From Sipunculus nudus (taxonomy: Eukaryota > Annelida > Sipuncula > Golfingiida > Sipunculidae), in contig CM049314.1 of the NCBI GenBank assembly GCA_026874595.1, forward strand, positions 23,323,729-23,387,728: a stretch of DNA of 64,000 nt, in the 5' to 3' direction. The position numbers and the translations under genes are program-made. Below are positions 1 to 52,657 of this stretch, one piece after another (the first letter of the stretch is position 1; every line of letters begins with the position of its first letter). The notes below the pieces were generated by a model. It worked only from the letters and a program-made list of their open reading frames with translations. It was not told the DNA's origin and ran no database searches.

Positions 1-983
1 AGTAATTTAGATGTCAGTAACACGCAATACACAGTGATATAACATGTAATGTACAATGTACTAACACTTAATGTACAGTGTAATGAAATGTACACCATGC
101 TAATATATACGATGTACAATCACTATGACACGTAATGTACAATTCAATATCAGACAGTTTACCGAGGTAAAGTTTAAAGTGCAATAACATTAAACCATGT
201 AACAACATGCAATATGGGGTATACTTAAATAAGCACTAAGTGTAGTGTTCATTATTTATAGTTTACAGAAAAGAACGCACAGTGAAATAACACGTAAACT
301 AGATTGTGATGTCATGCAGTCTGCAGTCTAAAGAAATGTAATGTGTAATTGCACGCAGTCTACAGTGTAATAACACGTTGAATACGGTGTTAAAATGTGG
401 TGCACATCCACGTGATGTACAATGTAGTGACGAGAAAGATACAGCAGTGAAACGAAATATACGATGCAATAACACGTTGTATAATGTCATGACACCGATG
501 TTAATGTTATAGCACGTAACGCATAATGTTATAACCCTTACAATGTAATGAAGCCTGTTGAACAGTGTTAGCAACGAAACAAAAAATTTACTAAGTCTCA
601 TAATGATTATCAAGCTTTCCTAACCCCTATATTTTACACAGGCTGATAAAATATGTGATAAAAAGTAATTCTAATTGACATTCCATAAATATACAGAGAG
701 CGAAATAAGATTTTGATTGAATTAATATATATTTTTTGCATCACAACTGTAAATCATGTTCAGTGACTCGATATATGTAACGTTCGATAGAGCCAAAACA
801 TTATGTTTCCTCTTTTAAGTACTTAGGACATGCATGCACATATATATTTATCTAACACACGGATAATTGGATGATTTTCAGTTTTTTTCTGTGAATACCC
901 TTTCAACGAAGTGTAACGTAAAATCGCTTCTTTATAATATTAACAGAGATAGATCAAAGTAAAATCAGGTGTCATCTAAAGAA

Positions 984-2840
984 TCACGAATTCTCGCCAA
1001 ATTGCTTTCCTTTGAGTGCGCTGCGCAAGCGCGGCCAAAACGAAGTCACGTGACCTTCGGAACAATCCCTTGGCCACTCAATATACGTCTGTCTTCGGAG
1101 AATATTCACCAGCGTGCGCGGCATGTCAGACACAGGAACATCTTCCAACAGGACCAGAACTAGTTTGTCGACGCCGCGTTCTATTAAATGGAGCCGCGCC
1201 ATGTGCATTTCGAATTTACACCACCCGCTGCTCATGAAGCCTCGTGACAGGACAAGTAAGGTCTTACGACTGTTGGAAATACTTTTGACAATATTTTCTT
1301 CAATGGCAATCCCAGGTACGAAGTCTCTTTGGTGAATACAGAGGCGCATTGGATTCTCACATTCTTCAATGTTCGGCAGAAGTTCATCGCATACCCAGTC
1401 AATATCATTTTCACAGTGAGCAACAAAAGCATCGTACACGAAACTGCCCTGATCCTCCGAAAGCTCCTCGTACAGGGCCCGCCTGATTCTAAACTGGAGG
1501 AAGGCGTACTTAATATCCCATCTGAATCGGTATATAAACACGGAAATACAAAGCAAAACGGCCAGCAAACCAGAAAAACTTAATGTCGCGTAAAGCCACC
1601 CGATATCGAAACATTTTCTTTCCAAGTACGGCAGAATGTAGCTTTTTAACTGTGTCATGTTCACTCTGTTTCCGTCAATATAACAATGCGTATCATGAAG
1701 TGCATGGAAATACTTACTCCTGTCGTGTAACCATCGCAAGAAATTGAGGGACTCGCACGAGCATTCCAAAGGATTCCCGTCCAAACGAACCACAAATCTA
1801 CGCTGTTTACTTCTTTCACAAACTCTGTCAAAAGTCTTCATTGCGTTTACCCCGAGGTATCGCAGTTTGTTTTTTGATATATCAACCATGTCTAGTATAT
1901 TCAGATTATCTAGATTTAAACTAAAATTTAACATGTTATTGTTAACTAGGCGTAATCTCCGTAATTTCGTATTGTTGCTAAGGAGATGTGGGTGCATTTC
2001 AATTATCTCATTTTGAGAAAGGTCTAAAATTTGAAGTCGAACTAGACGTGGGAATGGGCCAGTGAACCCTTTGACCATGTTTCCAAGACTGTTGTTGCGT
2101 AGGTTTAATCGTACGATGGAATATGCAAGGTTAGGACCAAAAGCTTCGTGTGCTATTTCCTTGCAGTTGTTGCCTGACATATCCAAACGAAAGCCCAGTA
2201 GTGGTTTCCCGAACTCAACCGTCCCAGTCATACTCTGGATATTATTATGTGAAAAATCGATCAACTCCGCTTTCAATTTATTTGTGATATGGATCTTTAC
2301 CATACTGCCTTTCTTGAATACTCCGATATTGAAACTGTTCCTTGCATATATTTTCTCTAGTGTGTATGGCAAGCGTAAATTAAGTGATGACGTTCTGACG
2401 TCACTTGGGTCGTTGTCATAACTAGAAAACATCCACGTCTGGTGACTTATATCTAGTACCTTTAACCGCTTCAGTTTCCAGAAGTTTGCGTCTTTCAGAT
2501 TCAGCCATCCCAGCAGATTACGACTTAAATTGAGACTATCCAGTTTGTAAAGCCCGTTAAAACACTCCGGATCCAGCCTATGTAAAGAGCATTTGTCCAG
2601 AGCTAGAATCCTTAAACGTGTACAGTTTGAGAAAGTGTTGTTTTGGATTCGATCGAAATTATTGCCAGATAAAATCAATTCCGAGACATTTCCTGTGCAC
2701 ACATCTGGAACTTGCTTTAGGCCTCTGAAGCTGCAGTCAACCTTCTGGGCACTCACTCTACATGCCGATGAACTCGAAGAGTGACCCGTAGTAAACGTCA
2801 AGGCCACTAGAAGCAGATTACCAAGGTGCAAAATTTCCAT
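984..2840 (-). CDS. Toll-like receptor, intact copy A
   Basis: Single-pass membrane pattern-recognition receptor of 618 residues that would signal through its cytoplasmic TIR domain. The start at 2838-2840 is chosen because it has a strong Kozak context (gccATGG) and begins a signal peptide (residues 1 to about 20). Reading further upstream crosses a poly-A run whose length differs between copies. Visible parts: N-terminal cysteines 27, 36 and 48; about ten LRRs (51-330); LRRCT with NPLECSC at 356-362 plus C386 and C410; transmembrane helix about 414-437; TIR about 466-610 with box 1 YDAFVAH, BB loop RDFVPG (505-510) and box 3 FW (601-602). The coding region is uninterrupted. The short ectodomain with one C-terminal cysteine cluster fits single-cysteine-cluster TLRs. 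Compared with C and D it has N114, E192, S251 and C341 (versus T, Q, R, F). The ligand is unknown. Confidence 0.93.
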   Translation of the reverse strand: MEILHLGNLLLVALTFTTGHSSSSSACRVSAQKVDCSFRGLKQVPDVCTGNVSELILSGNNFDRIQNNTFSNCTRLRILALDKCSLHRLDPECFNGLYKLDSLNLSRNLLGWLNLKDANFWKLKRLKVLDISHQTWMFSSYDNDPSDVRTSSLNLRLPYTLEKIYARNSFNIGVFKKGSMVKIHITNKLKAELIDFSHNNIQSMTGTVEFGKPLLGFRLDMSGNNCKEIAHEAFGPNLAYSIVRLNLRNNSLGNMVKGFTGPFPRLVRLQILDLSQNEIIEMHPHLLSNNTKLRRLRLVNNNMLNFSLNLDNLNILDMVDISKNKLRYLGVNAMKTFDRVCERSKQRRFVVRLDGNPLECSCESLNFLRWLHDRSKYFHALHDTHCYIDGNRVNMTQLKSYILPYLERKCFDIGWLYATLSFSGLLAVLLCISVFIYRFRWDIKYAFLQFRIRRALYEELSEDQGSFVYDAFVAHCENDIDWVCDELLPNIEECENPMRLCIHQRDFVPGIAIEENIVKSISNSRKTLLVLSRGFMSSGWCKFEMHMARLHLIERGVDKLVLVLLEDVPVSDMPRTLVNILRRQTYIEWPRDCSEGHVTSFWPRLRSALKGKQFGENS

Positions 2841-2859
2841 GGCAGCTGTCCTCAACACA

Positions 2860-3459
2860 CTGCATATGCTTATTAAAAAAAAGACAATTCTTTCAGTATA
2901 AGAAATGTGAGTAATTATGTACATATATCTAAAGTACAGATAAGTATGATTGTTTCAAGATAAATATCAGTTAGTGGACAATTTGAGTAATTAATGTCCA
3001 GCAATATAGGAAAAAATGAGACATCGATTTGAAAATTATCAAATGATATTATTTTGCATTCTGATTTTGTTATGTTAAAGTCAGCCAATACATGTTCTTT
3101 TCGTGCCTAGCTGGCATATCTTTTAAATTACAAACCTCTTTTAAACAACCGAAAAATCATCGGTTTGATGGCATACCCATTTCATTGCAAAGAATTCTGG
3201 CCAGACAGCTGACTTATCGGCAAGGGAATATGACATGTCGAGGAATTTGAAAATACTTGGTACACGATAGAAGTATACAGTTTACATAAAAGACCAACCG
3301 GTTCTAATAAAATTCCCTCAGCAAAATACAAGACAAAAGCAGTCTGTTCAAAATGACTATTTATGGGCGAGGTTGAACCGACGGTTTTATTTGCCGGTAG
3401 GGTAAATGCGCATAAAGAAATAAAGTATGTCTCTATACTGAAAGTATATTGATTCTTAC
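2860..3459 (-). other. Probable 5'UTR intron of TLR copy A
   Basis: Read on the minus strand, an exon ending GTCG at 3460 is followed by GTAAGA, a good splice donor. At the other end an oligo-T tract followed by atatgcag gives an acceptor ending at 2860, 19 bases before the start codon. The predicted intron is 600 bp. Equivalent introns are 14237-14837 (B), 24604-25204 (C), 35955-36556 (D) and 46527-47127 (E). The donor is also kept in the diverged copy F (58142/58143). The oligo-T tract is 8 to 10 bases long depending on copy, consistent with a polypyrimidine tract rather than coding sequence. Inference only; no transcript evidence. Confidence 0.45.
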
Positions 3460-3581
3460 CGACGGGGGTGTGTCAGCGAAACAGGACTCGCTCGACGTAT
3501 CAAGACACGTTTGTTGCACTGTTAGACATCGTCAGTGACGGCTGAGCCTGAAAATAGTTCTGTCTCATGCACAGGAGAAAT

Positions 3582-3595
3582 CCTTTTATGAGTCA
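3582..3595 (-). promoter_or_regulatory. AP-1-like site abutting TATA-like box
   Basis: On the minus strand, TGACTCA (3589-3595) runs into CATAAAAGG (3582-3590), about 120 bases upstream of the proposed 5'UTR splice donor. The order and spacing would suit a core promoter for the TLR. All five array units carry it, but they are nearly identical, so this is not evidence of constraint. The matching part of diverged copy F lacks it. A competing possibility is a promoter farther upstream near 7650. Confidence 0.2.
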
Positions 3596-5016
3596 CACAC
3601 AGGCCCAGTCACAGAGTAAAACATGAGACATCAGCTGATTTGTTTATGTTTCAGGATCAAATTCCGCATAAATATCTTGCGCGTCAGGTAAGAGCTTTCC
3701 CGACCTCCGCCACATAGGTCCCACCTCAGTTAGCACCAGAAATAACTAACTGGCGTAAAAGTAAGGGCATGTTTGAAGAGCCATTGACACCCCTTAGCTA
3801 TTGGTGCACGATATTATAGCAAAATAAATCTAATCCTCGTGTGATATAACCAAAGGTCTTCAAGTGCATTGCATGTCTTAGTGGTACACCGGTGATCACT
3901 GGAAGGCTAATAAAGGCCAATACACGGGGAAAAAGGACAAACGCTTTCTGTGTGCATCATTGTTTTGTTTAGATGCTTAGATATATGCATGGTAAAGCCG
4001 GATACGGTTTCATAGGTTGTTGTGCCAAGCCGCGGTCTTGTAATCATGATACATGGAAGGGTGCCCGAAAGGTCATACATGTAGTACGTGTGTTTATTAT
4101 CAACATAACTACAGTAGTATTCAGAGTCCGATCACGGCCAATTCCATCTTTGGTCATACCCCGTGTTTCCCTGGTTTTGTATATAGGGATTGCAATGACG
4201 TAACTAAATGTACTTCAATACCTAAGAGGTCAGGGGCGGTTTTAAAACTTTTAATATTCCTTATACGATTTACATGATATATCACATTTAGAAGTTACTG
4301 TCAAATATGAATAACTATGATATTAAAACTTTAATGACAGCCTATGAATCATATGAAGTTTATACTTCTTTAATTGTTCGATCATTAATGTGTTGTATGC
4401 CATGTATGCAATCTACCTCAGTACTATACTGCATTATTTAAACAAGGCCTACAGGCCTCATGCGAACCTGTGCAATAGGATATAGACAAGGTGTAATGCT
4501 TCAATGCTGGACCATTACTTTTCGAGCACATGAGTAACTTGTATATGAACAATGCAAGTACTAATTATTTTGAACAAGAAATAATTACACAAACATTACT
4601 GCTGCAATTCTGGCATGGGTGCATACAACACAAAAATGATTGTAGACGGTACCACTAGTCTTGTATACAACGAAGCTATCAGAGATATATACATATGCCC
4701 AATATCAGTCTGATATTTCAAAACCCTCCTGCGAAAAAGCAGGGACATACACAGTGCAAAAAGTAATGTAGGTGGCGTCACTAGTCTTGTACACGATAAA
4801 GCTATCCGAGATGAATTAAAAATGCCTAATTTCAGGCCGATGTATCGAATTTCTCTGTAGAAATAAGAAGGCATATACACTGTGCAAAAGTCATCGTAGG
4901 TGGCGACACCTGTCTTGTGAATGAGAAATCCATCAAAGATACATAGACAGGTCAAAATACCAGGCGAATATATCAGGTGTTTTCGCTTTTCTCCATTAAA
5001 ATGTTAGTTAATGCAG
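3596..5016. other. Upstream non-coding region of TLR unit A
   Basis: No gene recognised. A short minus-strand frame at 3644-3742 (containing VGPMWRRSGKLL) is preserved in the diverged copy F and is discussed as a finding. A plus-strand stretch with gtttcag and cag/gtaagag ends (3643-3694) resembles a 33-base exon but is not kept in F. The stretch 3840-4420 is also recognisable in F (58400-59030). From 4440 to 5016 there are related sub-segments with a shared gtaggtggcg...cactagtcttgta pattern. Confidence 0.5.
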
Positions 5017-6037
5017 GTGGTGCCACCAAACACTCGATCCCACAACATTTGATATCTGACAGATTTTGCATAAAGTTTTGGGATCCTAGCTCCTGCTATA
5101 TCTGAGAAATTATGGATTAATGAACTGATGACTGATGACCTCTGTACAGAAAAGATAAATGCAGGTGGTGCCCCCAATACCTCATTTTCAAATATGACTT
5201 TTTGACCAAAAATTGGATAATATTTGGTGATGATAGCTCCAGCCGTTTCTGAGATTGTAATAATAGTATGTGTTTTTACAGATGACTAAGTTCAACATCC
5301 TTAAATTTCTGTAAAAAAATTGGACAATATGGCTGTACAGTTTAGGAGAAAAAAGATTTTTCAAGGATTGTAAGCCTTTTTCCTATAAAATCTATGAAAA
5401 TGCAGTTAGCCAAAAAATGAGCAAAACCCGACAGAGTCATCTTTGATGACTATTTTTTTTTTTGCATAAAATTTGGTGATGCTAGCTCCTGGTGTTTGCG
5501 AGATAGTATGGGTTAACGTACAGACAACGGACGACGCCACACCATCGCATAAGCTTACATGTTTGCTAAAAATGACTGAAACCCTGTGACCCATGCTCCT
5601 CTAGTGACCGATAAAGGATAAGAAAAGCAGAGTGCTGTGCTGAGTGGCCGAAGGACAAAGGACAATCACCATAAGTTGAGTTCACTAAAAAAATGTTGAT
5701 AAAATCTGAGGCACTTTTCAAACTTTCCATAATTTGAGGTTCTATCAACAGCTAAGAGCTAAAGAATGCTGCCACTTTTGATCAAACAACCAGAGCAAAC
5801 ATTCAGCCATATGTAAAAATACATATACCACAAATGTACTTCCAAATCATATCATAATCACCTATTGCAATTAGTGTCTTAAATTTGTATGACTCTTACC
5901 TTCACATTAAAAGAGAACACAATGTCTAGGTATATTCAAAAACAACAGTCTTGATGTAACAATCACATTCCATAACACAATCCTCCTTCCTCAGTTAATA
6001 CAATGGTTATGTATTTGTTACCAGAGGCTTGGAGCAG
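5017..6037. repeat. 1021-bp segment present in A, C, D; absent in B, E
   Basis: The segment lies between two copies of gcag (5013-5016 and 6034-6037). In units B and E one gcag remains and the segment is gone, with identical breakpoints. Matching segments are 26762-27781 (C) and 38120-39138 (D). Part of it (about 5040-5560) is a diverged member of the dispersed repeat also seen at 6700-7330, with recurring phrases such as ttggtgatgatagctcc and tttctgagattgt. There are no terminal inverted repeats, so a 4-bp microhomology deletion in B and E is more likely than an insertion. Confidence 0.85.
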
Positions 6038-6699
6038 ACCACTGCTCACAGCCCAGCAAGAGGAAAATAAACTGAACTTATGACCCCTAACAGTTTCTAG
6101 GGCTAGAGGCACATGCAAGGTGATCACATTGTACCCATAAAGTGACAACATGCCTTTTACCTGGCTGCACTGAATGAACTCTTGACCTATATCAGCCCAC
6201 ACTGAATGAACTCTTCACCCGTTGCTTAATCCGAAACAGCTGGCAGTCTGTCAACCTATTTTATATACAGACACAATCTTGGCTTATTGGTAAATCTGTT
6301 TACACATACTGAAAAACTTTTTATCAAAATATCTAGAATAATAAAGGATACAGTCCTATCACTGGTAAAGGTCAAATAATTCTTTTAAAAATCATTCAAG
6401 TAAACTTGAACAAAGGCCACCTAGGAATCATTCTTCTGCAATGTTACAGAAGTTATAATTGAAACAACATTTTTGTAGAAGATTTTTGCAGTCCTCAGAT
6501 TGAAATAGGCTTAAAATGGCAATAAAACCAACTTAAGCTTTTCACGACTCTAACAATAATCAACTAACTCAATCTATTCTTATAAGATTGAAAGAACCAT
6601 GTCCTTGGATAATTCGTGTGAAAAATTGAACGATTCAACTTGACAGTTTCATATCATAAAACATTTTTAAGCTGAAAGAGGCTAATAGTATGAGGATTT

Positions 6700-7330
6700 T
6701 GCCTGTTAAAAACAGGTCAATGTATATGACGCCACAAAATCTGCTATTTCAAATATGAGTCATGTGACTAAAATTTGCACAATACTTGGTGGAGCTAACT
6801 CCAGTCCTTTCTGGAATTGCTATGTCAGTAAGCTAAATTGGCTAAATGACAACGTTCAAATTCACGTAACTCCACCAAAATTCACCAAACGCAAACCATT
6901 TGCCCAAACTTAAAAGGGCATGCCGCTGAGTTCATTTCTGTAGAATATTGAAGAATTTGGCTAGACCGTTTCGGAGAAGAAGATTTATATTTTTCCGGCT
7001 TTTCAAGCTCTTCTAAAAAATCTAAGTAAATGCAGATTACAAAAAAATTAAGCTTAATCCCATATTTATAAGTGACAGATTATTGTATAAAATTTGGGGA
7101 TGTTAACTCCTGCTATTCCTGAAAACAAATATGAGTTAATGTAAAGATGACCGATGACCCCCTCACAAAAATGGTCAATGCTGTAGGCGCCACTAATGCC
7201 TGAATTTCATATGATTCATGTGACCAACATTTGCATAAAATGTGGTGATGATAGCTCCGGCGGTTTCTGAGATTGTCATTTAGTATACTTTTTTGGACAG
7301 ATGATTAAGTTCAACTTCCTGTAACTCGGC
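6700..7330. repeat. Dispersed repeat, second copy within unit
   Basis: It shares several phrases in the same order with about 5040-5560: tgcataaaatttggtgatg, gatagctcc, tttctgagattgt, cagatgactaagttcaac. Corresponding positions in the other units are about 17060-17690 (B), 28450-29070 (C), 39800-40430 (D) and 49350-49970 (E). The pattern resembles an anonymous dispersed repeat family; I cannot name it. No coding potential recognised. Confidence 0.5.
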
Positions 7331-7640
7331 CAAAATTTATTGAACTTGAACCATTTGAACAAACTTGAAAGTAATGGTACAAGAGGTTATTTCTATGAAT
7401 TATTGAACAATTTGGCTGGACCTTTTTGAAGAAAAAGATTTTAAAGTTTTTTTTTCGCTTTCTCTATAAAATATAAGAAGGTGCAATTAGCAAAAAATCC
7501 GCTTGAAAAGTGACCCTGTAAAGAAAATGACCATTTATTACAGGAAAGATAACAATTTGAGCTAGCCCTAGAAATATGAGCCATGCTATGACATCGCACG
7601 ACTGCACCGTCAAAGATTTGACGTCAGGTGATGATGTCAT

Positions 7641-7650
7641 ACTTACCTCA
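7641..7650 (-). other. Consensus splice donor candidate
   Basis: On the minus strand the sequence reads GTGAG then GTAAGT, with the exon end at 7647. It could close an upstream, non-coding first exon of the TLR transcript. Nearby palindromic motifs include tgacgtca (about 7619-7626) and cacgtg (about 7660-7665). One consensus match of this quality is expected by chance roughly every 65 kb per strand, so support is weak. Confidence 0.2.
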
Positions 7651-7679
7651 CTAACTAAACACGTGTCCACGTCAGTGTC

Positions 7680-8690
7680 TCGACAAAGATTTTACTGCTA
7701 CGCTATTCTAATATCAAATATCTGCTCTCCTCGTTCTGTATAACTATTAAATTACTGCGATTGTTTATACGAGAATCATAAATAACTGTGCAGACAAACA
7801 GCGATAGAAACATTAATTAACATAACAGAATCGATATATAGCCTATATGATAAATAACATGAACGATTGTTTGATCGAGATAACAAAATACAGGCCTTGG
7901 CCTTCACCAGAAAAGTGTTCGCCTGAAGTGAACCAAAAGTTCGCCTTTAAATATGACACCGAAGTGAGAACATGGGTGCGGTTCGGCTATTATGACATTA
8001 CAGTATCATACAATATTATAAATGAATATTATATCATAAGAGTCACGCACAAGAGCCAACTCTCGGCTCAACAGCAACATATATACGTACCCTTGAAAGT
8101 ACCACAAAGGCAATCAAGTTAAAGGTTTAATACTGAGAGCTATGTACAACATTTAAATTACATAATAATACTAATAGGGGTGCATAATATTTTACAACGT
8201 GGGGAAATTTGAAACTCTAACCCCCTGAATGAATGGAACTGCATATAATACTGCATTTGTAAAAAAATCCGAATTTTCTTACCAGTGTAAGCCCCTGTTC
8301 ATCCCCCTAGGACGTTTGCATAAATATAAAAAATACCCTTGTTTCATTTTTTTTTCATATATTCTTCAACTCCTTTATTAACTGGGCTTCAAAACAGATT
8401 AAAGTTGTGTAAATATACTGACATGATCATCTTAACTGGTACTGACGTATTGTTACCATACTGTATTGATAGCATTATCGACGGCCTTAGCGTTGCTTAA
8501 AAATGAGATACAAAGAGGAAATGAAGCAAATAAGGCCATATAGTCATGTGCCATATTGATATAATCAAAACATATACTGAAAGACTGCTATATAAAAATG
8601 TTCAGCAAACTTTTGTTAAATATATGTTAAATATGTGAAGACGTAAGTGCTGACAGAAAAAAGTATCAAGTAGTATAGGCGTAACAAACT
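7680..8690. other. Unit A region shared with diverged copy F, no gene
   Basis: Sequence from about 7965 to 8690 is recognisable at 60125-60890 in copy F with many substitutions and indels. A 91-codon open frame at 7847-8122 is broken by indels in F, so I do not call it a gene. Confidence 0.5.
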
Positions 8691-9079
8691 GGCCTACAAT
8701 GCACCATGGCACGTTATGTACAGTGCACTATCAGACAGTCTGCCGTGGTGCTAACACGTCGACTGCTATTGCATATAATGTTTGTTGCAATGACATGTAA
8801 TTTACAATGTAATAACTTTTATTATTTGGTATAATAAACAAGCGCGTGCAGTGTACCTTATGTATAAGTCATAACACGAAGTCTCAGGGTAACAAAACGT
8901 AATCAAGAGTGTAAAAATATATACACAGTGTAAAAATGAATAGTACGGTGTATTGACACGTGAATTATAACACAGTGTCATATATGTACAATGTTAATAA
9001 ACGTGATGTACAATTTGGCAACGTGCAAGATACAGCAGTGACACGTCATATACCGTGAAATAAAAAGTTCTTCAATGTA
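8690..9079. repeat. Degenerate short-period repeat block 1
   Basis: Built of drifting variants of phrases such as aatgtacagtgtaataacacgt, interrupted by taa/cac steps. It stops at the TA target site of the Tigger-like element. Equivalent blocks precede the element in every unit. Part of it (cagacagtctgccgtgg) also occurs in F near 61559. Confidence 0.5.
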
Positions 9080-9914
9080 CAGTCCAACGCCTGCTAACGG
9101 CCACGCCTCAATAACGGTCAATACGTCTATAACGGTCAGATTTTCCGGTCCCGAATTTTCGACCGTTATATTTCATAATCATTTTGTTGTCAATTACAGT
9201 TACTCCTCTATTCCGTATTACGGCCAGGTTTCTCGGTCCCGCAGGCCGGTAAACGCCTCAATTACGGTCAGGGGCAGTGACTCCGTGATATAGGCTCAAC
9301 AAATCTAGCGGCAACTTCTGACCTCAATATCATTACACAAGTGTCCGCTCTCACATATTCCTATCTGTGCCTGGATAAGGTAACCACTCGACCGTGGCTT
9401 CATGAGTTGTTTGACACGTAGCCGGCGTCGTACCACCCAACTCAGCCTCTTTAGTATGCACAATAGTATAAGGCGTGTGTCCCCACCTGCGTGAACGTTT
9501 GGGAATCCGTCGTGCGAGCCGGATCTTAATCAGGGGGTTTGTCATTTAACCAATGAAAACCAGCGGGTCCCGATGGATATGTCATCAGAAAAACGTTAGG
9601 CAAACTGTGGATCCTAAAACTCTGTTTAATATCCTTGTGAACACGTACATCAAGCGAAAACAGTGCATACATGAATAATTATGAATGCAAAATAAACATT
9701 GTTACATGTATAAAATGGTTCGAATACATTGTCCAAATCACTTTGACCATTATGGCGACCAAATAAAAGACAATAAATAAATATTATTTTTTCTTTTTAT
9801 TGATAACAGTAATCATACTAATACTCTGTATATACGTTTATTTTGTTGATTTTAATAAAGATTTGGACTTGGTTTCGTGTTACATTTTAAACCCCTTCTT
9901 CTGGTCAAGTCCTA
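9080..9914. mobile_element. pogo/Tigger-like DNA element, 3' truncated (unit A)
   Basis: It starts after a TA with CAGTCCAACGCCTG, matching the terminal inverted repeat of the complete element in unit E. It is cut at 9914 by the array junction, so its last 73 bases are missing. No transposase recognised: a non-autonomous element. The short minus-strand open frame at 9351-9545 inside it is probably chance. Confidence 0.65.
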
Positions 9915-10195
9915 ACGGGAAGACTGTGCCCAAAGGTTAGTTTCACTCACAAAACGAGTGCGCTTTTCGGGGGTTCCCCGCTACTATGACGCAACAATTT
10001 GGATGAAACATACCAAGGACTGGAACTTTGCAGATGTACATATAGTTATAGTTAAGCAAGCATTAAAATGGAGGCGTATACCTACACCAACAAAATTTAC
10101 ATTGACAACAATATATAAAAAAAGACTCTCTATGCACCCTTTGGTATCCCTTCCCCCGGCGTTCATCACATAGCCACATTCAACACTGCTCGGCC

Positions 10196-10198
<3 letters not shown>

Positions 10199-10283
<85 letters not shown>
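10199..10283. repeat. (TA)n microsatellite, unit B, 85 bp
   Basis: Uninterrupted alternating AT. The same locus measures 85 bp in C, 49 bp in D and 47 bp in E, giving a copy marker. Open frames spelling alternating Tyr-Ile through it are artefacts. Confidence 0.97.
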
Positions 10284-10285
<2 letters not shown>

Positions 10286-11214
10286 TGACTTCACTTTTCT
10301 GATATCCTCCGTCCGCCCCAGGTCTGTGCTTCACGTGGCACTGAGATACAATTAGGAAGTCCTTTTATGCGGTGATTTCTTCCTCATCGAGTTATGACAA
10401 ATCGCTTATCAGATTCCTCTGCAGAAATTATTCACATGATATATCGACATGCGGAAACATAATATTAGTCATAGGCCATGTGGTTTGGTGCACACAAAAT
10501 CTGAGAACAATATGGGCGGATGTATTCCACAACTGAAAGTTCCCGGCCTGAGTGACGGCCTCCTTACTCATTGAGAGAGGATGGCTCCATATAGCCGTAT
10601 TACCACACTTGGCACGGATGCGAACACATTAGTTAATTTTCAAGGAACGCTGCTTCGCTTCAGATATATTTCTTACTTACATGTCTAATTCAATAATTGA
10701 TAAATTTTACGCATGCGCAATAAATGTAACGTGAATGCAATTGAAAGTTATCATGCACACGCACTTTACAGTATAACAACACGTTGATTTAGGAAAATAA
10801 TGCTAAATATATATGAATAGCTAGTGATGTAAAAACACTCAATGTTAATCTTAACGAGGTCCTATCGGAGACATCAAACCTCCGCCAGAATGATCCATGT
10901 GAAACTATACTGTGTAAGTCTGCACACCTGTCACGACTAAACAACCTCATCCCAGGTCACCTCCAGTACAAAGCCAACCGGTGATATCGATCAGTTGTTC
11001 TAATATAATGAAACAATAATAATAACAATGAAAGGATTATTCGAATTATATTCTAATGGTTTTCCGGCTTACCACCAACATTTAATGGACTATTTTTGTG
11101 TACATTCCTTACCCTCGACAATATTTTAACAAAATTAGTTCAGAACATTTTGTGTACACTTGTTGACAGACAAACAAAGGGTAAAGTATAATACCTCCCG
11201 CCCGTCTGTCAGAG

Positions 11215-11995
11215 ACATTGTAACATGTATGAACAGTGCATCAACCCGCTATGTATTGTGTAATAAAGCGAAAAATTTGGTGTAATGAAATGCAAAGTAC
11301 AAAATTATATGTACAATATGAAGCAATTTACAGTGTAATATTAAGAAGGCTATGGTATAATGAAATGTACAGGTTAATAGCAAGTAATTTAGATGTCAGT
11401 AACACGCAATACACAGTGATATAACATGTAATGTACAATGTACTAACACTTAATGTACAGTGTAATGAAATGTACACCATGCTAATATATACGATGTACA
11501 ATCACTATGACACGTAATGTACAATTCAATATCAGACAGTTTACCGAGGTAAAGTTTAAAGTGCAATAACATTAAACCATGTAACAACATGCAATATGGG
11601 GTATACTTAAATAAGCACTTAGTGTAGTGTTCATTATTTATAGTTTACAGAAAAGAACGCACAGTGAAATAACACGTAAACTAGATTGTGATGTCATGCA
11701 GTCTGCAGTCTAAAGAAATGTAATGTGTAATTGCACGCAGTCTACAGTGTAATAACACGTTGAATACGGTGTTAAAATGTGGTGCACATCCACGTGATGT
11801 ACAATGTAGTGACGAGAAAGATACAGCAGTGAAACGAAATATACGATGCAATAACACGTTGTATAATGTCATGACACCGATGTTAATGTTATAGCACGTA
11901 ACGCATAATGTTATAACCCTTACAATGTAATGAAGCCTGTTGAACAGTGTTAGCAACGAAACAAAAAATTTACTAAGTCTCATAATGATTATCAA
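11215..11995. repeat. Degenerate short-period repeat block 2
   Basis: Drifting variants of gtaatgtacagtg, cagtgtaataacacgt and similar phrases with irregular spacing of about 20-45 bases. Positions 1-613 are the same block in unit A. Equivalents start near 21577 (C), 32928 (D) and 44279 (E), and a diverged form lies at 61215-61659. No coding potential recognised. Confidence 0.5.
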
Positions 11996-12365
11996 GCTTT
12001 CATAACCCCTATATTTTACACAGGCTGATAAAATATGTGATAAAAAGTAATTCTAATTGACATTCCATAAATATACAGAGAGCGAAATAAGATTTTGATT
12101 GAATTAATATATATTTTTTGCATCACAACTGTAAATCATGTTCAGTGACTCGATATATGTAACGTTCGATAGAGCCAAAACATTATGTTTCCTCTTTTAA
12201 GTACTTAGGACATGCATGCACATATATATTTATCTAACACACGGATAATTGGATGATTTTCAGTTTTTTTCTGTGAATACCCTTTCAACGAAGTGTAACG
12301 TAAAATCGCTTCTTTATAATATTAACAGAGATAGATCAAAGTAAAATCAGGTGTCATCTAAAGAA

Positions 12366-16390: not shown

Positions 16391-16394
16391 GCAG
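16391..16394. other. 1-kb deletion junction, unit B
   Basis: One gcag joins sequence that in A, C and D is about 1020 bp apart. The identical junction is at 48681-48684 in unit E. Confidence 0.9.
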
Positions 16395-19300: not shown

Positions 19301-19437
19301 GTACGGTGTATTGACACGTGAATTATAACACAGTGTCATATATGTACAATGTTAATAAACGTGATGTACAATTTGGCAACGTGCAAGATACAGCAGTGAC
19401 ACGTCATATACCGTGAAATAAAAAGTTCTTCAATGTA

Positions 19438-20276: not shown

Positions 20277-20557
20277 ACGGGAAGACTGTGCCCAAAGGTT
20301 AGTTTCACTCACAAAACGAGTGCGCTTTTCGGGGGTTCCCCGCTACTATGACGCAACAATTTGGATGAAACATACCAAGGACTGGAACTTTGCAGATGTA
20401 CATATAGTTATAGTTAAGCAAGCATTAAAATGGAGGCATATACCTACACCAACAAAATTTACATTGACAACAATATATAAAAAAAGACTCTCTATGCACC
20501 CTTTGGTATCCCTTCCCCCGGCGTTCATCACATAGCCACATTCAACACTGCTCGGCC

Positions 20558-20560
<3 letters not shown>

Positions 20561-36760: not shown

Positions 36761-36770
36761 ATTATATATT
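36761..36770. other. Private replacement scar, unit D
   Basis: attatatatt stands where A, B, C and E have ccgc. The filler resembles neighbouring AT-rich sequence (aaatt, ataaatat), consistent with repair-templated insertion. Confidence 0.7.
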
Positions 36771-42100: not shown

Positions 42101-42181
42101 AAACGTGATGTACAATTTGGCAACGTGCAAGATACAGCAGTGACACGTCATATACCGTGAAATAAAAAGTTCTTCAATGTA

Positions 42182-43016
42182 CAGTCCAACGCCTGCTAAC
42201 GGCCACGCCTCAATAACGGTCAATACGTCTATAACGGTCAGATTTTCCGGTCCCGAATTTTCGACCGTTATATTTCATAATCATTTTGTTGTCAATTACA
42301 GTTACTCCTCTATTCCGTATTACGGCCAGGTTTCTCGGTCCCGCAGGCCGGTAAACGCCTCAATTACGGTCAGGGGCAGTGACTCCGTGATATAGGCTCA
42401 ACAAATCTAGCGGCAACTTCTGACCTCAATATCATTACACAAGTGTCCGCTCTCACATATTCCTATCTGTGCCTGGATAAGGTAACCACTCGACCGTGGC
42501 TTCATGAGTTGTTTGACACGTAGCCGGCGTCGTACCACCCAACTCAGCCTCTTTAGTATGCACAATAGTATAAGGCGTGTGTCCCCACCTGCGTGAACGT
42601 TTGGGAATCCGTCGTGCGAGCCGGATCTTAATCAGGGGGTTTGTCATTTAACCAATGAAAACCAGCGGGTCCCGATGGATATGTCATCAGAAAAACGTTA
42701 GGCAAACTGTGGATCCTAAAACTCTGTTTAATATCCTTGTGAACACGTACATCAAGCGAAAACAGTGCATACATGAATAATTATGAATGCAAAATAAACA
42801 TTGTTACATGTATAAAATGGTTCGCATACATTGTCCAAATCACTTTGACCATTATGGCGACCAAATAAAAGACAATAAATAAATATTATTTTTTCTTTTT
42901 ATTGATAACAGTAATCATACTAATACTCTGTATATACGTTTATTTTGTTGATTTTAATAAAGATTTGGACTTGGTTTCGTGTTACATTTTAAACCCCTTC
43001 TTCTGGTCAAGTCCTA
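42182..43016. mobile_element. pogo/Tigger-like element, 3' truncated (unit D)
   Basis: Same truncated form as in unit A, with the A-type tail. Confidence 0.65.
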
Positions 43017-43297
43017 ACGGGAAGACTGTGCCCAAAGGTTAGTTTCACTCACAAAACGAGTGCGCTTTTCGGGGGTTCCCCGCTACTATGACGCAACAAT
43101 TTGGATGAAACATACCAAGGACTGGAACTTTGCAGATGTACATATAGTTATAGTTAAGCAAGCATTAAAATGGAGGCATATACCTACACCAACAAAATTT
43201 ACATTGACAACAATATATAAAAAAAGACTCTCTATGCACCCTTTGGTATCCCTTCCCCCGGCGTTCATCACATAGCCACATTCAACACTGCTCGGCC

Positions 43298-43300
<3 letters not shown>

Positions 43301-43347
<47 letters not shown>
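43301..43347. repeat. (TA)n microsatellite, unit E, 47 bp
   Basis: Uninterrupted alternating AT, close to the length in D. Confidence 0.97.
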
Positions 43348-43349
<2 letters not shown>

Positions 43350-45429
43350 TGACTTCACTTTTCTGATATCCTCCGTCCGCCCCAGGTCTGTGCTTCACGT
43401 GGCACTGAGATACAATTAGGAAGTCCTTTTATGCGGTGATTTCTTCCTCATCGAGTTATGACAAATCGCTTATCAGATTCCTCTGCAGAAATTATTCACA
43501 TGATATATCGACATGCGGAAACATAATATTAGTCATAGGCCATGTGGTTTGGTGCACACAAAATCTGAGAACAATATGGGCGGATGTATTCCACAACTGA
43601 AAGTTCCCGGCCTGAGTGACGGCCTCCTTACTCATTGAGAGAGGATGGCTCCATATAGCCGTATTACCACACTTGGCACGGATGCGAACACATTAGTTAA
43701 TTTTCAAGGAACGCTGCTTCGCTTCAGATATATTTCTTACTTACATGTCTAATTCAATAATTGATAAATTTTACGCATGCGCAATAAATGTAACGTGAAT
43801 GCAATTGAAAGTTATCATGCACACGCACTTTACAGTATAACAACACGTTGATTTAGGAAAATAATGCTAAATATATATGAATAGCTAGTGATGTAAAAAC
43901 ACTCAATGTTAATCTTAACGAGGTCCTATCGGAGACATCAAACCTCCGCCAGAATGATCCATGTGAAACTATACTGTGTAAGTCTGCACACCTGTCACGA
44001 CTAAACAACCTCATCCCAGGTCACCTCCAGTACAAAGCCAACCGGTGATATCGATCAGTTGTTCTAATATAATGAAACAATAATAATAACAATGAAAGGA
44101 TTATTCGAATTATATTCTAATGGTTTTCCGGCTTACCACCAACATTTAATGGACTATTTTTGTGTACATTCCTTACCCTCGACAATATTTTAACAAAATT
44201 AGTTCAGAACATTTTGTGTACACTTGTTGACAGACAAACAAAGGGTAAAGTATAATACCTCCCGCCCGTCTGTCAGAGACATTGTAACATGTATGAACAG
44301 TGCATCAACCCGCTATGTATTGTGTAATAAAGCGAAAAATTTGGTGTAATGAAATGCAAAGTACAAAATTATATGTACAATATGAAGCAATTTACAGTGT
44401 AATATTAAGAAGGCTATGGTATAATGAAATGTACAGGTTAATAGCAAGTAATTTAGATGTCAGTAACACGCAATACACAGTGATATAACATGTAATGTAC
44501 AATGTACTAACACTTAATGTACAGTGTAATGAAATGTACACCATGCTAATATATACGATGTACAATCACTATGACACGTAATGTACAATTCAATATCAGA
44601 CAGTTTACCGAGGTAAAGTTTAAAGTGCAATAACATTAAACCATGTAACAACATGCAATATGGGGTATACTTAAATAAGCACTTAGTGTAGTGTTCATTA
44701 TTTATAGTTTACAGAAAAGAACGCACAGTGAAATAACACGTAAACTAGATTGTGATGTCATGCAGTCTGCAGTCTAAAGAAATGTAATGTGTAATTGCAC
44801 GCAGTCTACAGTGTAATAACACGTTGAATACGGTGTTAAAATGTGGTGCACATCCACGTGATGTACAATGTAGTGACGAGAAAGATACAGCAGTGAAACG
44901 AAATATACGATGCAATAACACGTTGTATAATGTCATGACACCGATGTTAATGTTATAGCACGTAACGCATAATGTTATAACCCTTACAATGTAATGAAGC
45001 CTGTTGAACAGTGTTAGCAACGAAACAAAAAATTTACTAAGTCTCATAATGATTATCAAGCTTTCATAACCCCTATATTTTACACAGGCTGATAAAATAT
45101 GTGATAAAAAGTAATTCTAATTGACATTCCATAAATATACAGAGAGCGAAATAAGATTTTGATTGAATTAATATATATTTTTTGCATCACAACTGTAAAT
45201 CATGTTCAGTGACTCGATATATGTAACGTTCGATAGAGCCAAAACATTATGTTTCCTCTTTTAAGTACTTAGGACATGCATGCACATATATATTTATCTA
45301 ACACACGGATAATTGGATGATTTTCAGTTTTTTTCTGTGAATACCCTTTCAACGAAGTGTAACGTAAAATCGCTTCTTTATAATATTAACAGAGATAGAT
45401 CAAAGTAAAATCAGGTGTCATCTAAAGAA

Positions 45430-46507
45430 TCACGAATTCTCGCCAAATTGCTTTCCTTTGAGTGCGCTGCGCAAGCGCGGCCAAAACGAAGTCACGTGAC
45501 CTTCGGAACAATCCCTTGGCCACTCAATATACGTCTGTCTTCGGAGAATATTCACCAGCGTGCGCGGCATGTCAGACACAGGAACATCTTCCAACAGGAC
45601 CAGAACTAGTTTGTCGACGCCGCGTTCTATTAAATGGAGCCGCGCCATGTGCATTTCGAATTTACACCACCCGCTGCTCATGAAGCCTCGTGACAGGACA
45701 AGTAAGGTCTTACGACTGTTGGAAATACTTTTGACAATATTTTCTTCAATGGCAATCCCAGGTACGAAGTCTCTTTGGTGAATACAGAGGCGCATTGGAT
45801 TCTCACATTCTTCAATGTTCGGCAGAAGTTCATCGCATACCCAGTCAATATCATTTTCACAGTGAGCAACAAAAGCATCGTACACGAAACTGCCCTGATC
45901 CTCCGAAAGCTCCTCGTACAGGGCCCGCCTGATTCTAAACTGGAGGAAGGCGTACTTAATATCCCATCTGAATCGGTATATAAACACGGAAATACAAAGC
46001 AAAACGGCCAGCAAACCAGAAAAACTTAATGTCGCGTAAAGCCACCCGATATCGAAACATTTTCTTTCCAAGTACGGCAGAATGTAGCTTTTTAACTGTG
46101 TCATGTTCACTCTGTTTCCGTCAATATAACAATGCGTATCATGAAGTGCATGGAAATACTTACTCCTGTCGTGTAACCATCGCAAGAAATTGAGGGACTC
46201 GCACGAGCATTCCAAAGGATTCCCGTCCAAACGAACCACAAATCTACGCTGTTTACTTCTTTCAAAAACTCTGTCAAAAGTCTTCATTGCGTTTACCCCG
46301 AGGTATCGCAGTTTGTTTTTTGATATATCAACCATGTCTAGTATATTCAGATTATCTAGATTTAAACTAAAATTTAACATGTTATTGTTAACTAGGCGTA
46401 ATCTCAACCTTCTGGGCACTCACTCTACATGCCGATGAACTCGAAGAGTGACCCGTAGTAAACGTCAAGGCCACTAGAAGCAGATTACCAAGGTGCAAAA
46501 TTTCCAT
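45430..46507 (-). pseudogene. Toll-like receptor copy E, internal 779-bp deletion
   Basis: The normal ATG (46505-46507) and signal peptide are followed, after residue 34, by a jump to the LRR sequence around residue 294. The 779 missing bases are not a multiple of three, so the frame shifts and translation stops after 39 codons. The join at about 46405 shares the two bases tc with both original sides. Downstream, the last LRRs, LRRCT, transmembrane helix and TIR stay open and unchanged, but without a natural start or signal peptide. Best called a pseudogene; an internal Met (near residue 303) could in theory start a short TM-TIR protein. Predicted 5'UTR intron 46527-47127 is still present. 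Confidence 0.92.
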
Positions 46508-48680
46508 GGCAGCTGTCCTCAACACACTGCATATGCTTATTAAAAAAAAAGACAATTCTTTCAGTATAAGAAATGTGAGTAATTATGTACATATATCTAA
46601 AGTACAGATAAGTATGATTGTTTCAAGATAAATATCGGTTAGTTGACAATTTGAGTAATTAATGTCCAGCAATATAGGAAAAAATGAGACATCGATTTGA
46701 AAATTATCAAATGATATTATTTTGCATTCTGATTTTGTTATGTTAAAGTCAGCCAATACATGTTCTTTTCGTGCCTAGCTGGCATATCTTTTAAATTACA
46801 AACCTCTTTTAAACAACCGAAAAATCATCGGTTTGATGGCATACCCATTTCATTGCAAAGAATTCTGGCCAGACAGCTGACTTATCGGCAAGGGAATATG
46901 ACATGTCGAGGAATTTGAAAATACTTGGTACACGATAGAAGTATACAGTTTACATAAAAGACCAACCGGTTCTAATAAAATTCCCTCAGCAAAATACAAG
47001 ACAAAAGCAGTCTGTTCAAAATGACTATTTATGGGCGAGGTTGAACCGACGGTTTTATTTGCCGGTAGGGTAAATGCGCATAAAGAAATAAAGTATGTCT
47101 CTATACTGAAAGTATATTGATTCTTACCGACGGGGGTGTGTCAGCGAAACAGGACTCGCTCGACGTATCAAGACACGTTTGTTGCACTGTTAGACATCGT
47201 CAGTGACGGCTGAGCCTGAAAATAGTTCTGTCTCATGCACAGGAGAAATCCTTTTATGAGTCACACACAGGCCCAGTCACAGAGTAAAACATGAGACATC
47301 AGCTGATTTGTTTATGTTTCAGGATCAAATTCCGCATAAATATCTTGCGCGTCAGGTAAGAGCTTTCCCGACCTCCGCCACATAGGTCCCACCTCAGTTA
47401 GCACCAGAAATAACTAACTGGCGTAAAAGTAAGGGCATGTTTGAAGAGCCATTGACACCCCTTAGCTATTGGTGCACGATATTATAGCAAAATAAATCTA
47501 ATCCTCGTGTGATATAACCAAAGGTCTTCAAGTGCATTGCATGTCTTAGTGGTACACCGGTGATCACTGGAAGGCTAATAAAGGCCAATACACGGGGAAA
47601 AAGGACAAACGCTTTCTGTGTGCATCATTGTTTTGTTTAGATGCTTAGATATATGCATGGTAAAGCCGGATACGGTTTCATAGGTTGTTGTGCCAAGCCG
47701 CGGTCTTGTAATCATGATACATGGAAGGGTGCCCGAAAGGTCATACATGTAGTACGTGTGTTTATTATCAACATAACTACAGTAGTATTCAGAGTCCGAT
47801 CACGGCCAATTCCATCTTTGGTCATACCCCGTGTTTCCCTGGTTTTGTATATAGGGATTGCAATGACGTAACTAAATGTACTTCAATACCTAAGAGGTCA
47901 GGGGCGGTTTTAAAACTTTTAATATTCCTTATACGATTTACATGAAATATCACATTTAGAAGTTACTGTCAAATATGAATAACTATGATATTAAAACTTT
48001 AATGACAGCCTATGAATCATATGAAGTTTATACTTCTTTAATTGTTCGATCATTAATGTGTTGTATGCCATGTATGCAATCTACCTCAGTACTATACTGC
48101 ATTATTTAAACAAGGCCTACAGGCCTCATGCGAACCTGTGCAATAGGATATAGACAAGGTGTAATGCTTCAATGCTGGACCATTACTTTTCGAGCACATG
48201 AGTAACTTGTATATGAACAATGCAAGTACTAATTATTTTGAACAAGAAATAATTACACAAACATTACTGCTGCAATTCTGGCATGGGTGCATACAACACA
48301 AAAATGATTGTAGACGGTACCACTAGTCTTGTATACAACGAAGCTATCAGAGATATATACATATGCCCAATATCAGTCTGATATTTCAAAACCCTCCTGC
48401 GAAAAAGCAGGGACATACACAGTGCAAAAAGTAATGTAGGTGGCGTCACTAGTCTTGTACACGATAAAGCTATCCGAGATGAATTAAAAATGCCTAATTT
48501 CAGGCCGATGTATCGAATTTCTCTGTAGAAATAAGAAGGCATATACACTGTGCAAAAGTCATCGTAGGTGGCGACACCTGTCTTGTGAATGAGAAATCCA
48601 TCAAAGATACATAGACAGGTCAAAATATCAGGCGAATATATCAGGTGTTTTCGCTTTTCTCCATTAAAATGTTAGTTAAT

Positions 48681-48684
48681 GCAG
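48681..48684. other. 1-kb deletion junction, unit E
   Basis: Single gcag, identical to the unit B junction at 16391-16394, although C and D between them keep the segment. Confidence 0.9.
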
Positions 48685-51600
48685 ACCACTGCTCACAGCC
48701 CAGCAAGAGGAAAATAAACTGAACTTATGACCCCTAACAGTTTCTAGGGCTAGAGGCACATGCAAGGTGATCACATTGTACCCATAAAGTGACAGCATGC
48801 CTTTTACCTGGCTGCACTGAATGAACTCTTGACCTATATCAGCCCACACTGAATGAACTCTTCACCCGTTGCTTAATCCGAAACAGCTGGCAGTCTGTCA
48901 ACCTATTTTATATACAGACACAATCTTGGCTTATTGGTAAATCTGTTTACACATACTGAAAAACTTTTTATCAAAATATCTAGAATAATAAAGGATACAG
49001 TCCTATCACTGGTAAAGGTCAAATAATTCTTTTAAAAATCATTCAAGTAAACTTGAACAAAGGCCACCTAGGAATCATTCTTCTGCAATGTTACAGAAGT
49101 TATAATTGAAACAACATTTTTGTAGAAGATTATTGCAGTCCTCAGTTTGAAATAGGCTTAAAATGGCAATAAAACCAACTTAAGCTTTTCACGACTCTAA
49201 CAATAATCAACTAACTCAATCTATTCTTATAAGATTGAAAGAACCATGTCCTTGGATAATTCGTGTGAAAAATTGAACGATTCAACTTGACAGTTTCATA
49301 TCATAAAACATTTTTAAGCTGAAAGAGGCTAATAGTATGAGGATTTTGCCTGTTAAAAACAGGTCAATGTATATGACGCCACAAAATCTGCTATTTCAAA
49401 TATGAGTCATGTGACTAAAATTTGCACAATACTTGGTGGAGCTAACTCCAGTCCTTTCTGGAATTGCTATGTCAGTAAGCTAAATTGGCTAAATGACAAC
49501 GTTCAAATTCACGTAACTCCACCAAAATTCACCAAACGCAAACCATTTGCCCAAACTTGAAAGGGCATGCCGCTGAGTTCATTTCTGTAGAATATTGAAG
49601 AATTTGGCTAGACCGTTTCGGAGAAGAAGATTTATATTTTTCCGGCTTTTCAAGCTCTTATAAAAAATCTAAGTAAATGCAGATTACAAAAAAATTAAGC
49701 TTAATCCCATATTTATAAGTGACAGATTATTGTAGAAAATTTGGGGATGTTAACTCCTGCTATTCCTGAAAACAAATATGAGTTAATGTAAAGATGACCG
49801 ATGACCCCCTCACAAAAATGGTCAATGCTGTAGGCGCCACTAATGCCTGAATTTCATATGATTCATGTGACCAACATTTGCATAAAATGTGGTGATGATA
49901 GCTCCGGCGGTTTCTGAGATTGTCATTTAGTATACTTTTTTGGACAGATGATTAAGTTCAACTTCCTGTAACTCGGCCAAAATTTATTGAACTTGAACCA
50001 TTTGAACAAACTTGAAAGTAATGGTACAAGAGGTTATTTCTATGAATTATTGAACAATTTGGCTGGACCTTTTTGAAGAAAAAGATTTTAAAGTTTTTTT
50101 TTTCGCTTTCTCTATAAAATATAAGAAGGTGCAATTAGCAAAAAATCCGCTTGAAAAGTGACCCTGTAAAGAAAATGACCATTTATTACAGGGAAGATAA
50201 CAATTTGAGCTAGCCCTAGAAATATGAGCCATGCTATGACATCGCACGACTGCACCGTCAAAGATTTGACGTCAGGTGATGATGTCATACTTACCTCACT
50301 AACTAAACACGTGTCCACGTCAGTGTCTCGACAAAGATTTTACTGCTACGCTATTCTAATATCAAATATCTGCTCTCCTCGTTCTGTATAACTATTAAAT
50401 TACTGCGATTGTTTATACGAGAATCATAAATAACTGTGCAGACAAACAGCGATAGAAACATTAATTAACATAACAGAATCGATATATAGCCTATATGATA
50501 AATAACATGAACGATTGTTTGATCGAGATAACAAAATACAGGCCTTGGCCTTCACCAGAAAAGTGTTCGCCTGAAGTGAACCAAAAGTTCGCCTTTAAAT
50601 ATGACACCGAAGTGAGAACATGGGTGCGGTTCGGCTATTATGACATTACAGTATCATACAATATTATAAATGAATATTATATCATAAGAGTCACGCACAA
50701 GAGCCAACTCTCGGCTCAACAGCAACATATATACGTACCCTTGAAAGTACCACAAAGGCAATCAAGTTAAAGGTTTAATACTGAGAGCTATGTACAACAT
50801 TTAAATTACATAATAATACTAATAGGGGTGCATAATATTTTACAACGTGGGGAAATTTGAAACTCTAACCCCCTGAATGAATGGAACTGCATATAATACT
50901 GCATTTGTAAAAAAATCCGAATTTTCTTACCAGTGTAAGCCCCTGTTCATCCCCCTAGGACGTTTGCATAAATATAAAAAATACCCTTGTTTCATTTTTT
51001 TTTTCATATATTCTTCAACTCCTTTATTAACTGGGCTTCAAAACAGATTAAAGTTGTGTAAATATACTGACATGATCATCTTAACTGGTACTGACGTATT
51101 GTTACCATACTGTATTGATAGCATTATCGACGGCCTTAGCGTTGCTTAAAAATGAGATACAAAGAGGAAATGAAGCAAATAAGGCCATATAGTCATGTGC
51201 CATATTGATATAATCAAAACATATACTGAAAGACTGCTATATAAAAATGTTCAGCAAACTTTTGTTAAATATATGTTAAATATGTGAAGACGTAAGTGCT
51301 GACAGAAAAAAGTATCAAGTAGTATAGGCGTAACAAACTGGCCTACAATGCACCATGGCACGTTATGTACAGTGCACTATCAGACAGTCTGCCGTGGTGC
51401 TAACATGTCGACTGCTATTGCATATAATGTTTGTTGCAATGACATGTAATTTACAATGTAATAACTTTTATTATTTGGTATAATAAACAAGCGCGTGCAG
51501 TGTACCTTATGTATAAGTCATAACACGAAGTCTCAGGGTAACAAAACGTTATCAAGAGTGTAAAAATATATACACAGTGTAAAAATGAATAGTACGGTGT

Positions 51601-51728
51601 ATTGACACGTGAATTATAACACAGTGTCATATATGTACAATGTTAATAAACGTGATGTACAATTTGGCAACGTGCAAGATACAGCAGTGACACGTCATAT
51701 ACCGTGAAATAAAAAGTTCTTCAATGTA

Positions 51729-52657
51729 CAGTCCAACGCCTGCTAACGGCCACGCCTCAATAACGGTCAATACGTCTATAACGGTCAGATTTTCCGGTCC
51801 CGAATTTTCGACCGTTATATTTCATAATCATTTTGTTGTCAATTACAGTTACTCCTCTATTCCGTATTACGGCCAGGTTTCTCGGTCCCGCAGGCCGGTA
51901 AACGCCTCAATTACGGTCAGGGGCAGTGACTCCGTGATATAGGCTCAACAAATCTAGCGGCAACTTCTGACCTCAATATCATTACACAAGTGTCCGCTCT
52001 CACATATTCCTATCTGTGCCTGGATAAGGTAACCACTCGACCGTGGCTTCATGAGTTGTTTGACACGTAGCCGGCGTCGTACCACCCAACTCAGCCTCTT
52101 TAGAATGCACAATAGTATAAGGCGTGTGTCCCCACCTGCGTGAACGTTTGGGAATCCGTCGTGCGAGCCGGATCTTAATCAGGGGGTTTGTCATTTAACC
52201 AATGAAAACCAGCGGGTCCCGATGGATATGTCATCAGAAAAACGTTAGGCAAACTGTGGATCCTAAAACTCTGTTTAATATCCTTGTGAACACGTACATC
52301 AAGCGAAAACAGTGCAAACATTGCACAATTTACTCATACATGAATAATTATGAATGCAAAATAAACATTGTTACATGTATAAAATGGTTCGCATACATTG
52401 TCCAAATCACTTTGACCATTATGGCGACCAAATAAAAGACAATAAATAAATATTATTTTTTTCTTTTTATTGATAACAGTAATCATACTAATACTCTGTA
52501 TATACGTTTATTTTGTTGATTTTAATAAAGATTTGGACTTGGTTTCGTGTAACATTTTAAACCCCTTCTTCTGGTCAAGTCCTATATAACGGCCACTCCT
52601 GTATTAAGGCCACTTTCATACAGTCCCGATGGTGACCGTAATACAGGCGTTCTACTG
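51729..52657. mobile_element. Complete pogo/Tigger-like non-autonomous element (929 bp)
   Basis: Bounded by TA duplications (51727-51728 and 52658-52659). The left end is CAGTCCAACGCCTG and the right end, read in reverse, is CAGTAGAACGCCTG; both continue into ACGG(C/T)CAC, giving terminal inverted repeats of about 27 bases. TA target and CAGT ends fit the Tc1/mariner pogo-Tigger group. No transposase frame is recognisable. This is the only complete copy in the window: A-D lose the last 73 bases because the array junction lies inside it. Confidence 0.75.

Follow-up and report, generated by a model that had tools for sequence, protein, structure and literature searches.

We describe a tandem array of five same-strand, head-to-tail units, each carrying a Toll-like receptor (TLR) sequence, in the sipunculan Sipunculus nudus, and propose that it grew in discernible steps. 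The array was analysed in a window of 64,000 nucleotides (C9:23323729-23387728, contig CM049314.1) of a single assembly (genome 1.43 Gb, 153 contigs), and lies within it save for its left end. In our reading, to which we give a probability of about 0.8, a block was duplicated at the short sequence CCTA, the two resulting copies (now the outer units, A and E) accumulated differences, recombination between them gave a chimera, the chimera was copied to form the interior units (B, C and D), and two of the five receptor genes were then lost; the extra copies would raise the dosage of the one receptor that C and D share.

The array was delimited by comparing the window with itself and with its left flank, and runs from -1437 to 52584 in window coordinates, which are used throughout. 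Position 52584, where homology ends on the right, fixed the unit phase (position within the unit) and is the right end already given by an initial annotation of this DNA; self-comparison bore it out. That annotation also had the array running on leftward, beyond the window edge. Instead, an alignment of unit A with unit C that included the left flank runs to -1437, where unit A is complete, and stops there, so the array is closed at both ends and comprises five units in the assembly. Sequence unrelated to the unit flanks it on either side. Five units in one orientation had been correctly called, whereas the period assigned to them, about 11.35 kb, holds for A, C and D only, B and E being 10,362 and 9,568 bp long. 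Pairwise unit alignment, which had been suggested as a gauge of divergence, gave 0.14-0.41% substitutions between whole units; the least similar piece in any pair has 98.98% identity, i.e., the units are ~99% alike or better. When three clustered scars are omitted, unit-to-unit divergence is 0-0.32% whichever part of the unit is taken.

The edges of the units suggest how the first duplication arose. The left flank ends in ...GGAGGCCTA, the last unit ends in ...CAAGTCCTA ahead of the right flank, and the four internal junctions are identical to one another, reading ...CAAGTCCTA followed directly by ACGGGAAG. CCTA is thus present at the left flank, at all four internal junctions and at the right end, which shows that the end of the block was joined to its own start at this 4-bp sequence. 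As a first step, one 11-kb block was duplicated by the joining of two breaks at the CCTA microhomology, either by end joining or by template switching. Homology between the flanks and the unit edges was considered as a cause of this duplication and set aside, as only short or AT-repeat matches were found. Likewise, no copy of the dispersed repeat that lies near the unit's right edge (Table 1) crosses the breakpoint in the upstream stretch (L007) or the right part of the window, a search that was not extended genome-wide.

The distribution of variants among the units points to what followed. Substitutions private to unit A (n=23) lie at phases 187-8481, bar one at 11192, and those private to unit E (n=6) lie at phases 8556-11354, such that one breakpoint, between phases 8481 and 8556, fits 28 of the 29. 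In 200,000 label shuffles a fit this good was reached 16 times, and an exact rank test gave p = 4e-5. Seven of the A-private sites fall in sequence deleted from unit E and were assigned from the other units alone; without them, one breakpoint fits 21 of 22 (59 of 200,000 shuffles, p = 2.5e-4). Divergence on either side of the breakpoint, computed with the three clustered scars left out, follows the same division: A and E differ by 0.242% to its left and 0.246% to its right. For B, C and D, divergence from E rises from 0.015-0.030% left of the breakpoint to 0.246-0.316% right of it, and divergence from A falls from 0.257-0.298% to 0.070-0.141%. Among themselves, B, C and D are 0.01-0.05% apart in the left part (B and D, 0.014% on the left and 0 on the right). 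The interior units therefore behave as recombinants of the outer ones, with one contrary shared site (phase 9536). Since the first 8.5 kb of B, C and D resembles E and the remainder A, we infer that they descend from a single unequal-crossover chimera. Accordingly ordered, units A and E would be the two first copies, having diverged by 0.24% over their full length; misaligned pairing between them, with a crossover ~8.5 kb into the unit, would then have produced the chimera (E-like on the left, A-like on the right), a step that the variants support strongly; and further copying of the chimera, accompanied by some exchange among the units, presumably gave rise to B, C and D.

Two older copies of the unit to the right of the array, F and G, served as outgroups. 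G could be compared at seven of the 23 A-private sites: A is derived at four, among them phase 5747, where a third base is found in F; at phases 4438 and 4445 it is B, C, D and E that carry the derived base; and one site is uninformative. One of the six E-private sites was comparable, and E is derived there. Over the 3.6-kb best-matching stretch, unit and G are ~19% divergent at the DNA level; set against the 0-0.32% between units outside the scars, this indicates a recent amplification. The initial annotation had called the amplification recent, and this is well supported. The amplification took more than one event, with A and E as the older pair and B, C and D as later additions. Commonly quoted animal mutation rates are 1e-9 to 1e-8 per site per year, which would place the A/E split roughly 0.1-1.2 million years ago and make the later copying younger by several times.

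Several observations sit awkwardly with this history. At phase 9536, a T that F and G lack is found in both A and E, while B, C and D carry the outgroup base. A 1-kb deletion common to B and E, a scar common to B and C, and a variant at phase 162 common to A and B each call for an extra exchange or a coincidence, and the A-private site at 11192 falls to the right of the breakpoint, contrary to the scheme. Indels agree with it less closely than substitutions do, as three of four A-private indels lie to the left and three of five E-private indels to the right, the two E-private indels on the left being a 779-bp deletion and a 2-bp step in an AT run. Moreover, the A-E substitutions to the right of the breakpoint number only seven, and the support as a whole comes from the sequence of one assembly and one haplotype.

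The last step would be the loss of the TLR genes of units B and E, leaving three intact. In B, 23 nt (as found in C) are replaced by an 18-nt filler at 13036-13053 that shifts the frame and resembles pieces of both flanks. What remains open is a 441-amino-acid reading frame (12892-14217) covering the ectodomain, without transmembrane segment or TIR, the TIR being in another frame. In E, the 779-bp deletion has 2-bp microhomology at its ends and also shifts the frame; the transmembrane segment and TIR are still open from an internal ATG (45430-46380). Filler scars of the kind seen in B are left by polymerase-theta-like end joining, and both TLR lesions bear the marks expected of end joining. 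A smaller filler scar lies in unit D at 36761-36770; the filler in B resembles both its flanks more clearly. The units also differ in a segment of about 1 kb with a 4-bp GCAG microhomology at its ends: A, C and D have it (1,019-1,021 bp), whereas B and E do not. A recent insertion that created a 4-bp target duplication is disfavoured: within the segment, four sites separate A from C and D. The segment thus seems older than the A/E split, and its absence from B and E reads as deletion.

We weighed four other accounts of these data. The five units could be an assembly artefact, with two haplotypes (e.g., of three and two copies) strung together or the copy count guessed, as might happen when units ~99% alike or better over 10 kb are assembled (here in 153 contigs, and analysed from the assembly alone). 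We consider this unlikely: each unit has its own lesions or private sites (in D these amount to a small scar and one private 1-bp indel), the four junctions have the same sequence, the flanks never recur between units, and the distal 2.2 kb of the unit is found at full length at these five places only (40 candidates scored of 961 at first look). An old array homogenised by gene conversion, that is, concerted evolution in place of recent duplication, is improbable as well. Variants are shared incompatibly between units at phases 162, 8255, 9536 and 11336-11342, as is the B/E deletion, so exchange probably occurs; this account, however, is at odds with edge units that are evenly 0.24% apart, with one clean breakpoint, and with the failure of any unit to retain older divergence such as that of F or G. 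That the broken TLR of B is maintained as a secreted decoy receptor, instead of being a pseudogene, seems to us very unlikely. Its open frame does keep the signal peptide and a nearly full ectodomain (residues 1-388 at 100%) and ends ahead of the transmembrane segment and TIR, yet the lesion looks like a templated end-joining scar, occurs in one unit only and leaves the tail out of frame, and selection cannot be read from a single copy. Finally, a single burst (rolling circle or reintegration of an extrachromosomal circle) that made all five units, with later differences random, would explain the identical junctions and the low divergence throughout but is very hard to reconcile with a divergence far from star-like (A-E 0.24%; B-D 0.014% on the left and 0 on the right) and with a closest partner that switches at 8.5 kb.

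Having favoured stepwise growth, we turn to the gene that was multiplied. Every unit has one single-exon TLR sequence on the minus strand; the earlier statement of one TLR per unit is thus right for sequence but not for genes, of which three of five (A, C and D) are intact. The protein matches LRR_8 (2.8e-18) and TIR (5.5e-17) in Pfam, its best PDB matches are TLR3, TLR1 and TLR2, and a CxC...C...C block ahead of the transmembrane segment is invariant in 16 of 16 aligned sequences. With one LRRCT, a single transmembrane segment and no internal LRRCT-LRRNT pair, it has the features of the short protostome-type (sP) class, these elements and the signal peptide having been assigned by eye, without a predictor. 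The TIR of TLR C contains RDFVPG, which we take to be the box 2/BB-loop proline region tied to TIR signalling competence. From its domains, the protein is predicted to be a plasma-membrane receptor that signals via its TIR. Comparison of C with G gives a ratio of nonsynonymous to synonymous divergence (dN/dS) of 0.25-0.30, indicating that the receptor has been under long-term constraint.

Three further claims about the copies were upheld: C and D encode identical proteins (their coding DNA is also identical), the TIR is the same in all five units (477 bp of identical DNA), and A departs from C and D at four residues, all in the ectodomain (T114N, Q192E, R251S and F341C; four replacements, no synonymous change). 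At these positions G carries T, K, R and F, which makes A the derived copy at three of the four. TLR A may accordingly be drifting or starting to diverge in its ectodomain, and the extra copies would raise the dosage of one receptor, that of C and D. The dosage increase and copy-number polymorphism suggested earlier are plausible possibilities, to be set beside a single assembly in which two of the five genes are broken.

The array is a further case of the known tandem amplification of TLRs, with an unusually clear record of mechanism: a legible fossil of immune-receptor array building, in which microhomology join, unequal crossover, copying and gene death are all found within ~0.3% divergence. 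The CCTA junction, the chimera breakpoint, and the 1-kb and 779-bp deletions provide exact markers with which a population could be typed for copy number and TLR dosage. Should animals differ in copy number, TLR dosage could be tested against infection outcome in a wild invertebrate.

The oyster has 83 TLR genes, 57 of them linked in tandem arrays, and nine pseudogenes (PMC4346834); there, as here, a large family grew by local tandem duplication, and by eye the array TLR fits the oyster sP class without LRRCT-LRRNT. The oyster account differs in describing linked genes of divergent function, whereas our units are 0-0.32% apart outside the scars, and in the array the junction, crossover point and lesions are all readable. 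TLR expansion in bivalves is credited especially to tandem duplication (PMC12521104, a review), a hard clam has tandem expansions of immune genes (PMC8905726), and recurrent tandem duplication via non-allelic recombination has been proposed for corals (PMC12314368). In a mussel, massive gene presence-absence variation has been described in a paper whose main text has neither 'Toll-like' nor 'TLR' (PMC7653742). The array fits the two-step growth model put forward for yeast CUP1, in which a rare non-homologous or microhomology join is followed by homologous unequal exchange (PMC4232551). CUP1 breakpoints mostly show scant homology or none, in contrast to the CCTA found here; CUP1 encodes a metallothionein, and its copy number differs from strain to strain, in correlation with copper resistance. 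The Sp185/333 immune genes of the purple sea urchin lie in near-identical tandem segments, three of them of ~4.5 kb (PMC3091723). As in the array, an immune gene was multiplied together with its flanks; unlike the array, where the edge is CCTA and the (AT)n run lies 285 bp inside, those segments are microsatellite-bounded, and the protein family is unrelated to TLRs. Subject searches, judged by title or the start of the abstract, found no published description of this array, which is weak evidence.

A genome-wide protein search for TLRs gave at least 82 matches, some genes being counted twice (71 of 689 candidates scored). Sixteen other TLR loci drawn from these matches were compared, a biased sample in that most were chosen for their clustering. 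On C11, three loci (L013, L014 and L015, at 20281893, 20441904 and 20599410) are spaced 160.0 and 157.5 kb apart and are 99.0-99.3% identical over 10 kb; they encode 784-amino-acid TLRs that differ at one to three residues (99.6-99.9% identical). This triplet is perhaps a 160-kb segmental duplication or else an assembly duplication. Loci L016 and L018 are 99.3% alike, with L017 97.6-97.7% like both. A TLR cluster at 89.47-89.88 Mb on C1 (L019-L025) has copies 89-99% alike: three are 98.5-98.6% identical over 7.5 kb, the pair L022/L024, ~320 kb apart, is 99.2% identical over 6.6 kb, and other pairs are at ~89-95%. The two C14 loci are 91.7% identical across 3.6 kb; with C5 they have just 2.1 kb in common, at 75-77%. 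Among the loci compared, segmental TLR amplification is thus not peculiar to the C9 array. We raise only tentatively the wider idea, doubtful at present, that TLR neighbourhoods across the genome are being multiplied in parallel as whole segments, from the 11-kb array to the ~160-kb C11 copies, so that the animal would have, for particular TLRs, a standing dosage system of variable copy number that yields broken copies as a by-product.

Table 1. Features of the array and its surroundings (window coordinates)
Feature	Position	Strand	Description
Unit A	-1437..9914 (1..9914 inside window)	+	11,352 bp; left 1,437 bp outside window
Unit B	9915..20276	+	10,362 bp; without the 1.02-kb segment
Unit C	20277..31663	+	11,387 bp
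Unit D	31664..43016	+	11,353 bp
Unit E	43017..52584	+	9,568 bp; last unit
TLR A	984..2840	-	intact 618-amino-acid reading frame
TLR B	12366..14217	-	broken by frameshift
TLR C	22728..24584	-	intact 618-amino-acid reading frame; signal peptide, LRRs, one LRRCT, transmembrane segment, TIR
TLR D	34079..35935	-	intact; coding DNA identical to TLR C
TLR E	45430..46507	-	broken by 779-bp deletion in ectodomain, at 46403/46404
1,020-bp segment	26758..27777 (unit C)	+	carried by A, C and D (1,019-1,021 bp); missing in B and E
Dispersed repeat near unit's right edge	30820..31600 (unit C)	+	81-92% like 35 other places (40 candidates scored)
Right breakpoint	52581..52588	+	unit-end CCTA joins flank
Copy F (older, decayed)	52683..61658	+	57212-61658 matches unit in pieces, 76-86%

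Of the two older copies, neither of them mentioned in the initial annotation, F retains a TIR fragment (57374-57850, minus strand) with an internal stop. G (66.7-72.7 kb) has an intact TLR, which begins 2.9 kb beyond the window and shows 88% amino acid identity; a further fragment lies to its right, at 75.6-76.4 kb. Positions 52683-53734 of F match, at 82%, a stretch upstream of G (64970-65999, i.e., L011:970-1999), and this shared upstream sequence suggests that F and G arose in an earlier tandem duplication. Translations of 52925-53964 resemble, by eye, a decayed reverse transcriptase of the LINE (long interspersed nuclear element) type, with no Pfam match.

Outside the TLR, three open reading frames of the unit were scanned and had no Pfam match, other frames of 80-126 amino acids being outside the scan; among 20 from the unit and both flanks, one in the left flank gave the only Pfam match, weak and below the cut-off. 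No structured RNA in the window reached the gathering score, and a tRNA-like sequence at the left edge was dismissed when ARAGORN gave no tRNA in that stretch (L010). The dispersed repeat spans phase 10,544 to at least 11,324 of 11,387, where it reaches the end of the query. An (AT)n run lies 285 bp into the units, at 10199, 20561, 31948 and 43301, and is 85 bp long in B and C, 49 in D and 47 in E; the left flank has a separate (AT)n run ~300 bp outside the array edge. Between the array and the unit-like part of F, minisatellite-like repeats, mostly of 47-53 bp, occupy 54861-55307, and related repeats occur near 74.7 kb (L012).

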